Assembly: GCA_019186965.1 (NCBI GenBank)
Contig: JABARV010000010.1
Location: forward strand, 248,001 to 312,000
From: Turneriella sp.
Lineage (GTDB): Bacteria; Spirochaetota; Leptospiria; Turneriellales; Turneriellaceae
Length of the DNA stretch: 64,000 nucleotides
Direction of reading: 5' to 3'
Made by a program: the position numbers and the translations under genes. Under the pieces are notes generated by a model. That model saw only the letters and a list, made by a program, of their open reading frames with translations. It had not been told where the DNA came from and did not search any database. Positions 8,309 to 12,594 of this stretch are shown one piece after another; position 1 is the stretch's first letter; each line of letters starts with the position of its first letter.

Positions 8309-10018
8309 ATGCGCAATTTTGAAGAATCACTCGCCATCGCCGAAGCATGGACAAAACCACCATTCGATGTTGAAACACAAAACCAAGTGCGAACTCTCCT
8401 CAAGCTGGATGAAAAAGAGCGTGAAAAAGAAATTCTCGACCGCTTTGGTTATGATTTAGCATTCGGTACCGCTGGCATGCGTGCTGTGATGGATGTCGGT
8501 ACAGCGCGTACCAACGAATACACCATCCGACGCGTTAGTTGTGCGCTCGCACAAGTTATAAAAAAAGAGAGCGGCAAGAGCATTGTCATTGGTTACGATG
8601 GCCGTAAAGACTCAGCCAAATTTGCCGAAGTGGCGCGCAACGAATTTTTAGGCGCAGGACTTGATGTCTTTGCTTTCGATCGCATTTTACCGACACCCTT
8701 GATTCCTTTTGCCGTCAGAAAATTAAACGCCGATTGCGGTGTGATGATCACCTCGAGCCACAACGCCGCGCCGTACAACGGTTACAAAGTGTATAACGCG
8801 CAAGGCGCACAAATTTTATCGCCGTTCGACACCGCCGTCATGGCGGTGATGCAAAACTTGCCGTACAGTGGAGCATCTGCTGCAAGCACAGGGAAGCTCA
8901 CGTTGTTGGATGAAACCCTTTTACGCGAGTATGTTTCGTGGGCGACAAGCGAAGCAGATTTTTCCCCTAAAGAAAATCGAAATTTGAAAATTGTATTCAC
9001 CCCGTTGCATGGCGCATCGGGCGCGATGATGAATTCGGTTTTTTACCGCGCCGGTTTCAAAAATTTTCTCCCCGTGCCGCAGCAATACGAACCGCGCCCC
9101 GACTTCCCTACGGTAAAAGCCCCCAACCCTGAAAATAAAGACAGCCTCGGTATGGCAATCCGCATGGCGAAAGAAGAAAACGCCGATTTAATCCTCGCCA
9201 CCGACGGTGACGGCGACCGTGTGGGGATTGCATACCAAAAAGACGGCTCTTACGTTTCGCTCACCGGCAACCAAATTGGCACTCTCTATCTTTTTTATTT
9301 ATTAACGAAGCTCAAAGAAAAAAATACAGACCTTCAAAAATGCTTCGCGCTCTCGAGTGTGGTCTCCACGCCGCTCACAAAAAAAATATGCGATGCGTTT
9401 GGCGTGCGCTACTTTGCAACGCTCACCGGCTTCAAGAACATGGGGAATAAGGCGGATGCGTACATCCGCGCCAACGCCGGTGCGCGCATGGTGCTCGCGT
9501 TTGAAGAGGCGTTCGGCGTCACCATCGGCGATTCGCGCGATAAAGACGGGCTCGTCAGCTGCCTTTTGGGTGCGCACATCGCCGCCGACGGCGGCATCGA
9601 GGCGTGGCTTAAAAAAATGTATAGCGAGTGTGGGTACGCCGCCGAAGATGCAGTCGAAAAAGAGTTTTTAGGCTCCGAAGGTATTTCTGCGATGAACGCT
9701 GTTGTCGACGCATTGCGGCAAAAGCCCATTACAGAATTTTTGGGCGCACCGGTTGTCTCGGTGCGTGATTTTAAAACCGGTGTGGAAAAACGCGGTGGAA
9801 AAGAAATTCCGATTGAGGACATCCCAACCCAAAATCTTCTTTATTACACAAATACAGCCGGTGATTGGTTTGCGCTGCGCCCTTCGGGCACCGAGCCCAA
9901 ACTCAAAGCATACGTCGGCGTGTGCGCAAATGAATTTTCTACATCGAGCGAAAGCCATTTACGCGAACGCCTCACCGCGCTCTGCCACTTTGCGCAAGCT
10001 CTTTTGGATTCGCCATGA
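8309..10018 (+). CDS. Phosphohexomutase (phosphoglucomutase/phosphomannomutase)
   Basis: 569 aa, the length of the PgcA-like branch of the alpha-D-phosphohexomutases. It moves phosphate between C1 and C6 of glucose or mannose. Motifs: the phosphoserine loop ITSSHNA at about 147-153, the metal-binding DGDGDRVG near 299-306, the sugar-binding AFEEAFGVTIGD, and the phosphate-binding RPSGTEPKLKAYV near the end. The preference for glucose or mannose cannot be told from sequence alone. The stop overlaps the next start by 4 bp (ATGA), coupling it to the cyclase. Confidence 0.93.
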   Translation: MRNFEESLAIAEAWTKPPFDVETQNQVRTLLKLDEKEREKEILDRFGYDLAFGTAGMRAVMDVGTARTNEYTIRRVSCALAQVIKKESGKSIVIGYDGRKDSAKFAEVARNEFLGAGLDVFAFDRILPTPLIPFAVRKLNADCGVMITSSHNAAPYNGYKVYNAQGAQILSPFDTAVMAVMQNLPYSGASAASTGKLTLLDETLLREYVSWATSEADFSPKENRNLKIVFTPLHGASGAMMNSVFYRAGFKNFLPVPQQYEPRPDFPTVKAPNPENKDSLGMAIRMAKEENADLILATDGDGDRVGIAYQKDGSYVSLTGNQIGTLYLFYLLTKLKEKNTDLQKCFALSSVVSTPLTKKICDAFGVRYFATLTGFKNMGNKADAYIRANAGARMVLAFEEAFGVTIGDSRDKDGLVSCLLGAHIAADGGIEAWLKKMYSECGYAAEDAVEKEFLGSEGISAMNAVVDALRQKPITEFLGAPVVSVRDFKTGVEKRGGKEIPIEDIPTQNLLYYTNTAGDWFALRPSGTEPKLKAYVGVCANEFSTSSESHLRERLTALCHFAQALLDSP

Positions 10019-11229
10019 TTGCGTTTTTCAAATCGCTCGTCGTCGCGGGTGAAGAGCTCGATGCGCACCGCCGCCGCTATGTAGTCAACACCAATGTTTA
10101 TGCCTTGAGCGTAATTCTTTTTAGCTTACCTTATCCCTTTATCTATTTGTATCTACACGTCGATATCGATCCGCTTGCACTTTGGGGCTCTGTACTTTTT
10201 ATTCTGGCGTACGCGACGGTGCCTTTTTTCAACCGCCTTAAAGTATACACTCTCGCCAAACTTTTATTTTTTATCACCGCGCTAGTTCAACTTTTTATCA
10301 TCTGTGTTTTTTTTGGACAAGCCACCGGTCTCGATCAATTTTTTTACGCCGCGTTTATCGGCGTTTTTTTTGTGATGGATCGCCATCAAAAAATACTTAT
10401 TATCCCTGCGCTTGTCGTCATCGTTGCAGAGTATATACTGTTGCATTTAATCTACGCCCACTTTGCTCCCGTCATTAAAGTCGAACCAGAAACGGCGACC
10501 ATCATCCACCACCTGACATCTGTCGCGGTGTTTTTACTTTTAGGTTTGCAGTGCCTTTTTTTCTATTGGGGAAATTTACGCGCCGAAGAGAATCTCGAAG
10601 AAGCACGAAGGCAATCCGACCGTTTGCTCCTCAACATTTTACCCGAACCGATTGCCGACGAGCTCAAAGAAAAAGGTACGGTCGAACCGGTGGAGCACGA
10701 CTCGGTGACGGTGGTCTTCACCGATTTTGTGGGATTCACCTCGAGTTCCGAATTTCGCAATCCCGTGGATTTATTAAAAGACCTCGACGATTGTTTTTCT
10801 GCGTTCGACGCGATCATTGAAAAACACGGTTTAGAAAAACTCAAGACCATTGGCGATGCGTACATGTTCGCTGGCGGCGTGCCCACCGACTTGGTCGATA
10901 ACGCAACGCGCTGCGTAGCGGCCGCCATAGAAATTATCGCTTACGTCAAGAAGCGCCGCGAAGAGAACAATCGGTTTTGGCAAATCCGCGTCGGCATCCA
11001 CACGGGGCATCTCATCGCAGGCGTCATTGGTCGCAAAAAATTTATCTACGATGTGTGGGGCGACACGGTGAACACCGCCAGCCGCTTGGAGTCGTCGGGG
11101 GAACCCGGGCGGATTAACATCTCTCACGCCACATACGATTTAGTGAAAGAGAAATTTCGTTGCACGCCGCGCGGAGAAATTCCGGTGAAAGGCAAAGGAC
11201 CGCTCGCGATGTATTTTGTGGATGTTTGA
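10015..11229 (+). CDS. Class III adenylate cyclase, membrane-bound
   Basis: 404 aa. About six hydrophobic helices fill residues 20-190, then a cyclase homology domain from about 225. VVFTDFVGFTSS carries the first metal-binding Asp. KLKTIGDAYMFAGG has the adenine-selecting Lys, and FIYDVWGDTVNTASRLES has the adenine-selecting Asp plus the Asn and Arg of the transition state. By this residue code it should make cAMP rather than cGMP. It overlaps the mutase gene by 4 bp. A cyclic-nucleotide-gated channel is encoded at 59539-61212, a plausible cAMP target. Confidence 0.9.
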   Translation: MIAFFKSLVVAGEELDAHRRRYVVNTNVYALSVILFSLPYPFIYLYLHVDIDPLALWGSVLFILAYATVPFFNRLKVYTLAKLLFFITALVQLFIICVFFGQATGLDQFFYAAFIGVFFVMDRHQKILIIPALVVIVAEYILLHLIYAHFAPVIKVEPETATIIHHLTSVAVFLLLGLQCLFFYWGNLRAEENLEEARRQSDRLLLNILPEPIADELKEKGTVEPVEHDSVTVVFTDFVGFTSSSEFRNPVDLLKDLDDCFSAFDAIIEKHGLEKLKTIGDAYMFAGGVPTDLVDNATRCVAAAIEIIAYVKKRREENNRFWQIRVGIHTGHLIAGVIGRKKFIYDVWGDTVNTASRLESSGEPGRINISHATYDLVKEKFRCTPRGEIPVKGKGPLAMYFVDV

Positions 11230-11281: not shown

Positions 11282-11596
11282 ATGCGAGTCACTATTTTGC
11301 TTTTTATAGCGGCCATTACAGCTACGGCTCTTTCCGCAAACCCCATAGCTTCAAATTGCACTTTCAAGGGACACAAACTCTACGGCAAAATTAAAATTGT
11401 AGAATCGTTTCCCGACATTAAAGTAAAAATTGTCGACTCGTTCCCCGACATCAAGGTAAAGCAGGTTTCGAGTTTCGCTGACAGTTGTGGTAAATGGCAA
11501 TTTGTCGAGTCATTCCCTGATATAAAAGTTCAATTTGTCGAATCTTTTCCCGATATAAAAATAAAATACGTTGAGTCGTTCCCGGGGATTAACTAA
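11282..11596 (+). CDS. Small secreted repeat protein, probable 7(1) septoil-knot family
   Basis: 104 aa. A signal peptide (residues 1-19, ending ALSANP) precedes tandem 11-residue repeats of the type KVKIVESFPDI: five near-exact copies plus a diverged one interrupted by SCGKW. Cys is present near the start of the mature part (SNCTFKG) and at DSCGKW, suggesting a disulfide. Short bacterial proteins with this VDSFPD-type repeat are, as I recall, annotated as 7(1) septoil-knot proteins, among the most complex knotted folds known; the function is not established. The upstream purine-rich AAAAAGAAGT serves as ribosome site. It stands alone after the cyclase. Confidence 0.7.
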   Translation: MRVTILLFIAAITATALSANPIASNCTFKGHKLYGKIKIVESFPDIKVKIVDSFPDIKVKQVSSFADSCGKWQFVESFPDIKVQFVESFPDIKIKYVESFPGIN

Positions 11597-11634: not shown

Positions 11635-12594
11635 TTAAAGCACGCTTACGAGCGATAAAGAAACGGTTGTTGCGCCTTCGTAAAAGACAGTTCCATTAAG
11701 AGGTCCCATTGCCATTTGTGCGCTCAAAGGAAATTTTCTATCGACACCGATATTTAGCACCGTCGACTCGCCAACATAGAAGCCAAAATCTCCGCGAAGG
11801 TATGTTTGTGCCTGCCGTAGAATGGGATTATCTTGGCTTGTCGAATCTACTAACTTGAGCATGCCAAAAGCTGGCCTTAAGTAGAGGTCTTCAAAATCAA
11901 ATTGGAATATCAATTCTCCTGCGACGGCATCGGAACGGCGGTACTCCACCCCTTTAGAACTTGTCGAGGGTGCATGGGCGCCGTAAGCTGCCAACACACA
12001 CGTAAAGTCACCTGAATTCCATCCTGCTCCCACTATGCCAATATACGCATCTTGCGGCGAAGTAACCGCAGAGCCGTTTTTAATCCCGGGTTGAAAACGT
12101 CCTTCAACATTGAGGTACCACTCGTCGCTCCGCGTTCCTAAAATGCGGCCAGCAACACCAACCGTCGTTCGTTCGAAACCACTTTTTTCGGAAGAGGTAT
12201 CTGCGGGTAATCCAAACCCTCCTCGGTTGGTGGTTGATTCTTGCAGACTGAGTAGGTATTTTCCGCTTGTGGCAAGAGAAATGCGGTCTGTTATACCGTA
12301 CTTGAGAGTTAGCTCCGTAAAATATTGGTCTTTAGGGCTACGTATTTCCGCATCTGGCCATGACGCCAGTCCGACCATTTGTGTCGGTAAATGGATGTAC
12401 GACAAACTATATTCGTACAACCATTCGCTTTTTATAAGGAACTCGCCTGCGTAAGGTGAATAGGCGACATTTGCAACTTCCAAAGGAAAGTTGCCGTCGT
12501 CATCTGCGGATAAGCGGCTTATGGAAAAAAACGCCCATAGAAGAAGATACCACGGATGTTGACGGGCACAAATTATCCTGCGAGCCTTCTCCAT
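11635..12594 (-). CDS. Predicted outer-membrane beta-barrel protein
   Basis: 319 aa. A hydrophobic signal segment (about residues 13-30, ending SRLSADD) is followed by alternating hydrophobic/polar strands with many Tyr, Gly and Ser, for example LTLKYGITDRISLATSGKYLLSL and GVAGRILGT, typical of a barrel of the transporter/porin type. No specific family is recognised. The start ATG lies 2 bp after the stop of the large lipoprotein gene upstream, so the two are probably one operon and may work together at the cell surface. Confidence 0.6.
   Translation of the reverse strand: MEKARRIICARQHPWYLLLWAFFSISRLSADDDGNFPLEVANVAYSPYAGEFLIKSEWLYEYSLSYIHLPTQMVGLASWPDAEIRSPKDQYFTELTLKYGITDRISLATSGKYLLSLQESTTNRGGFGLPADTSSEKSGFERTTVGVAGRILGTRSDEWYLNVEGRFQPGIKNGSAVTSPQDAYIGIVGAGWNSGDFTCVLAAYGAHAPSTSSKGVEYRRSDAVAGELIFQFDFEDLYLRPAFGMLKLVDSTSQDNPILRQAQTYLRGDFGFYVGESTVLNIGVDRKFPLSAQMAMGPLNGTVFYEGATTVSLSLVSVL

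Follow-up and report, generated by a model that had tools for sequence, protein, structure and literature searches.

What fold is encoded at positions 11282–11596 (+) of the analyzed window, a 64,000-nucleotide stretch of a Turneriella sp. genome, and what might the product do for the cell? Our analysis of this short gene indicates that its product belongs to the Q9PR55 (septoil, 7_1) knotted family, is predicted to be exported and would probably fold after export into a disulfide-stapled, two-strand torus-type knot. This interpretation builds on established features of the protein and its family, namely homology, a signal peptide, a 3+3 repeat layout, a confident six-strand model, paired cysteines, concerted turns and phage carriage; the biological role is its least certain step.

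Gene layout and homology to the Ureaplasma protein

An open reading frame check of the sequence revealed an intact gene of 104 aa. Its first 18 residues (MRVTILLFIAAITATALS; 11282–11335, +) form a Sec-type signal peptide by sequence and hydropathy, comprising a basic start, then a hydrophobic segment (average Kyte-Doolittle value of 2.3 over residues 4–17) and an A-x-A-like end preceding ANPIASNC, and similar exported-type N-termini are seen in the sequences of most homologues; the protein is thus a predicted Sec substrate. The remaining 86 aa (11336–11593, +) constitute the mature knot-family domain, as delineated by phmmer, Foldseek and VIA matches to PDB entry 8iwa, a high-confidence model and a match to phrog_6462. 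The gene is lower in GC content than the genes flanking it (39.7 vs. 48%).

The domain carries six VxSFPD-type turns starting at residues 40, 51, 62, 75, 86, and 97, three on either side of a central SCGKW break (residues 68–72; 11483–11497, +) that occupies a conserved column in the family. On the plus strand, these turns read VESFPD (11399–11416, also located by the turn positions of the family alignment), VDSFPD (11432–11449), VSSFAD (11465–11482), VESFPD (11504–11521), VESFPD (11537–11554), and VESFPG (11570–11587), the last one lying within a C-terminal extension past the part aligned with Q9PR55. The turns are spaced by 11 residues, or 13 across the break, and a self-repeat score of 146 at offset 11 (vs. 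a mean of 21 and a maximum of 45 in 1000 shuffles) bears out the tandem repeats with a central SCGKW break proposed in the preliminary description. The repeats use differing synonymous codons and, therefore, do not stem from a recent DNA duplication, and since the same layout recurs in independent homologues from many phyla, neither the reading frame nor its repeats can be attributed to chance. The protein contains exactly two cysteines, Cys26 in the N-terminal segment (11357–11359, +) and Cys69 in the break (11486–11488, +), which, based on their covariation, would be the two halves of a disulfide.

A phmmer search of all PDB sequences yielded a single match at E ≤ 1, the Ureaplasma protein UU089.1/Q9PR55 (E = 7.9e-13; five entries including 8iwa), with residues 28–93 of the window protein aligned on residues 20–85 at about 43–44% identity. 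A family profile built from 50 homologues matched Q9PR55 with E = 5.8e-16. Membership in the septoil-knot family, as originally suggested, is upheld by both of these searches, as well as by the agreement of the model described below with the Q9PR55 structures, and the comparison with this family, recommended at the outset as a check, returned homology rather than a lack of similarity. To our knowledge, Q9PR55 is the most complicated knotted protein having a solved structure, and it is the sole solved 7_1-knotted protein found in this analysis. It was described as a 7_1 knot with a core at residues 27–83 (Brems et al., 2022, PMC9278004), and crystallography has confirmed the knot according to a later review (PMC13352647). 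This core is aligned in its entirety with approximately residues 37–91 of the window protein, none of them missing, Q9PR55 carrying a 2-residue insertion near the break. As the whole core is aligned, we infer a 7_1 knot for the window protein too, an assignment that we consider fairly likely.

Predicted fold, knot type and family-wide constraints

AlphaFold modeling of the mature protein with its homologues produced a confident model (pLDDT 95.2, pTM 0.81) with six strands at residues 17–21, 28–32, 39–43, 53–56, 63–67, and 74–78 of the mature numbering, again in a 3+3 arrangement. In a Foldseek search of this model against the PDB, the Q9PR55 entries were the only ones at E ≤ 0.001 (E from 6e-6 to 7e-5); no significant match was found among viral predicted structures. 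A second look with VIA placed the model on 8iwa in register (Z 5.8, 2.3 Å over 58 residues). The predicted structure shares the 8iwa fold, with a fit that is not tight (TM of only 0.58–0.64 despite 43–44% identity, and a VIA Z below 8).

This looseness bears on an alternative of considerably lower, yet appreciable, probability, in which the protein adopts the same fold with a terminal segment threaded differently, giving a 5_1 or another knot. The knot type could indeed differ, since P73136 (112 aa), a published Q9PR55 homologue with 48% identity to it, is predicted to form a 5_1 knot (PMC9278004), and 8iwa is fitted more closely by a model of a DUF6150 protein than by that of the window protein (1.9 Å over 60 residues vs. 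2.3 Å over 58). Nevertheless, all residues aligned with the core are present, the indels amount to 2 residues only, the tails are adequate on both sides, and the N-terminal segment FKGHKL aligns with FKNKKV of Q9PR55, which together argue for the 7_1 type.

Far less probable is an ordinary unknotted beta-solenoid or other repeat protein, with the knot as a prediction artefact. Solenoids are common among simple repeat proteins, and AlphaFold, being blind to chain crossing, is able to produce false knots; this concern is lessened here by the existence of a solved knotted homologue, approximately 43% identical and knotted in both crystal and NMR structures. The structure prediction suggested in the preliminary description, for which an unknotted solenoid was the contrary outcome, gave a confident model matching Q9PR55, and no solenoid is among its fold matches (Foldseek vs. 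PDB). Furthermore, among the 152 distinct family sequences from the gathered loci that we aligned, the distance from turn 1 to turn 6 is exactly 57 residues in 140 of 140 complete members. Such a fixed number and spacing of repeats is as expected of a closed entangled fold, unlike open solenoids.

The turn motifs themselves shift as a set from protein to protein (SFPD, AFPD, HFPD, NFPD, TFPD, YGED, HHED, HGAD, or IAPD). In 52 sequences of <70% identity, the identity of turns within a protein reaches 0.743 vs. 0.472 ± 0.007 after shuffling. The codon identity between turns is close to expectation (0.459 vs. 0.407, an excess of 0.05 ± 0.015), and the likeness of the turns is therefore kept mainly at the protein level. 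Homogenization of DNA as its main cause was mostly rejected in view of this small excess; ancient conversion followed by synonymous drift is a possible source of the like turns.

The two cysteines, noted early on along with the signal peptide, behave as a pair throughout the family: those of the N-terminal segment and of the break are gained or lost jointly (34/1/2/15 in the set of <70% identity, Fisher p = 4.6e-10), and in the two exceptions having the break cysteine only, the N-segment cysteine is shifted by an insertion. A different arrangement is seen in 8 of 85 sequences (<80% identity), of Myxococcota, other deltaproteobacteria and Bacteroidia types: they lack the cysteine of the break and have one immediately ahead of the first strand together with another at the C-terminus. 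A bond between these two, if formed, would close the backbone into a true knot. The alternative pair was noted at loci L083, L088, L166, L167, L169, and L178–L182.

Several members of unusual architecture or turn type were encountered as well. A Bacteroidia locus (L074) contains two nearby family genes, the turns of which differ between the genes and agree within each; this locus and another one from Bacteroidia (L098) display HHED, HGAD, and AFPD turns. A Myxococcales protein of the YGED type (L101, 1–418), cut by the contig end, has two tandem knot domains and is a candidate composite knot, and one further protein (L019) has an extra N-terminal domain ahead of the knot domain in one open frame.

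In the mechanism that we favor, the chain would leave via Sec and, once in the periplasm, would adopt the form of a compact torus-type knot of two strands, with 7_1 as the likeliest type. The three-strand halves would wind about each other around the SCGKW turn. A Cys26–Cys69 disulfide, suggested by the covariation, would staple the N-terminal segment onto that turn, and the six SFPD turns would take equivalent, symmetry-related places and be held alike by selection. Such a module would be small and highly stable and would probably resist proteases. The turns together may form a repeated surface, and we tentatively propose this ring of identical turns as a binding face.

Distribution, gene neighborhoods and possible role

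The family has a scattered distribution over many phyla. Members are present in 29 of 296 Spirochaetota genomes, in 17 of 235 genomes from the phylum of Minicystis, in 19 of 295 from the class of a Tannerella genome and in only 2 of 369 from the class of an Achromobacter genome, and also occur in Alphaproteobacteria, Selenomonadales and others. Thus, this knot-type fold has a far wider distribution in bacteria and their phages than the searched literature describes. For the window protein, searches of Pfam, NCBIfam and PADLOC were uninformative, and a search of a phage collection gave no match; its match to phrog_6462 spans 99 of 103 positions (E = 7.8e-36). The same phrog is common to all eight phage and prophage copies tested. 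The window copy, by contrast, is chromosomal, with no visible prophage.

The cyclase neighbor mentioned in the preliminary description does adjoin the gene in the window, which begins 52 bp past the stop codon of the cyclase (10015–11229) on the same strand; this arrangement, however, is not conserved. A joint action of the knot protein with this membrane adenylate/guanylate cyclase, e.g., as its extracellular input, would fit the shared strand and the short distance, and we regard it as extremely unlikely given that six congeners possess an orthologous cyclase (68–71% identity) whose flanks, as read, contain neither a knot gene nor a phosphoglucomutase match. The knot gene of the congeners is located elsewhere, by an alpha/beta hydrolase gene and, in some, a YidB-like gene. 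With synteny broken in the flanking sequences read from all six, a functional tie to the cyclase was dropped. Class III cyclase genes are abundant in the genus (12 matches in the genome of the window, 22–45 in several congeners). On the other side of the knot gene, the window encodes a 319-aa exported-looking protein (11635–12594, −) that resembles an outer-membrane barrel on visual inspection and matched nothing in Pfam or PHROG.

Clustering of the neighbors at approximately 100 loci revealed lineage-specific neighbors only (a macro-domain gene, a DEAD helicase, YidB, an alpha/beta hydrolase), and no neighbor conserved outside close kin was found among them. At Selenomonas-type loci (L002, L050, L059, L065, L072, L079, L092, and L099), a macro-domain protein is often encoded downstream of the knot gene.

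Phage and prophage copies adjoin genes for the baseplate hub, tape measure, tail, terminase or endolysin. This setting raises the possibility, which we deem unlikely, that the phage members are structural, as a part of the baseplate or tail tip that the host subsequently recruited as an exported protein. Two Leptospira prophages have the knot gene within the baseplate operon and on its strand, flanked by a 120-aa baseplate-region gene and by gpJ, with gene ends that overlap or nearly do so; such a placement may point to a component of the virion instead of a cargo gene, as may the baseplate hub genes adjoining the knot gene in other phages. However, both Leptospira copies bear signal peptides, odd for a virion part, and elsewhere the placement resembles that of cargo genes, the knot gene being oriented against the late genes at six loci (L137, L138, and L141–L144), near the terminase at two (L134 and L136) and near the endolysin at one (L135).

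As to the role of the exported knotted protein, functional data for any member were not found in the literature searched. We tentatively suggest, as a possibility well short of even odds, a stand-alone envelope or lysogenic-conversion factor spread horizontally and by prophages, as moron-type cargo beside the tail genes, which may act, e.g., in superinfection exclusion or envelope protection. The phage carriage, patchy spread, low GC content and unconserved neighbors were counted in favor of this overall explanation.

The DUF6150 family and comparison with known systems

A distant relative emerged from the weaker matches of the family profile in Bacteroidia (L183–L187), which turned out to match Pfam DUF6150 (PF19647; E = 4e-25 at L187, 1e-8 at L183, and 1e-7 at L186). 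The window protein itself has no PF19647 match at E ≤ 1 and lies short of the DUF6150 gathering cut-off, and the predicted relationship of the two is at the superfamily level only. Comparison of the DUF6150 alignment with the knot family by hhalign gave a score of 38.1 (E = 3e-6, probability 88); 200 column shuffles scored no higher than 19.5, and the reversed profile scored 11.1. A DUF6150 member from viral contigs, modeled with seven sequences (pLDDT 89.7), was superimposed by VIA on residues 25–84 of 8iwa, i.e., on the entire knotted core (1.9 Å over 60 residues, Z 6.5); a Z of 2 was attained by only 4 of 405 chains, and each of the three entries listed belongs to Q9PR55. Foldseek alone aligned this model poorly and with a shift, and the in-core match comes from VIA. 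Both families have 3+3 repeats, a central W and concerted turns (0.796 vs. 0.382 ± 0.011 for DUF6150), whereas DUF6150 differs in its 13-residue repeats and in motifs such as YESQAD. The profile and model comparisons provide strong but not final support for a shared fold, the Z being below 8. The distant relatives recorded as DUF6150, with viral-contig copies included, comprise L183–L187 and L222–L235; no mention of DUF6150 was found in the literature searched.

On a broader reading, plausible although somewhat below an even chance, the 7_1-type knot defines a superfamily that includes DUF6150, extends over many bacterial phyla and phages and is mostly exported, in which the torus quasi-symmetry makes the turns evolve as a set and an N-/C-terminal cysteine pair closes the knot in one branch. 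We think that the DUF6150 superfamily link and the family-wide constraints are new. In the exported branch with its putative disulfide, the chain would have to leave the cell before folding and knot itself in the periplasm; the long-standing question of complex knotting without cytosolic help thereby becomes directly testable. Ready variants for studies of folding, stability and evolution are offered by the diverse turn motifs, the constant repeat number, DUF6150 and the alternative cysteine pair.

Among known systems, the closest is Q9PR55 of Ureaplasma (PDB 8iwa, 8iwb, 8iwc, 8jrm, 8w68), which has six strands and 3+3 repeats, as does the window protein; the latter differs, as judged from the aligned part of Q9PR55, by its signal peptide, by CGKW in place of the EETIK shown there and by a longer C-terminal tail. 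P73136, with its predicted 5_1 knot, is linked to the window protein through its published homology to Q9PR55. A more general likeness is shared with the designed (2,q) torus-knot proteins (Doyle et al., 2023, PMC10598012), in which tandem repeats also make up a two-strand torus knot; those designs are alpha-helical and artificial, whereas the family described here occurs in nature and consists of short strands.
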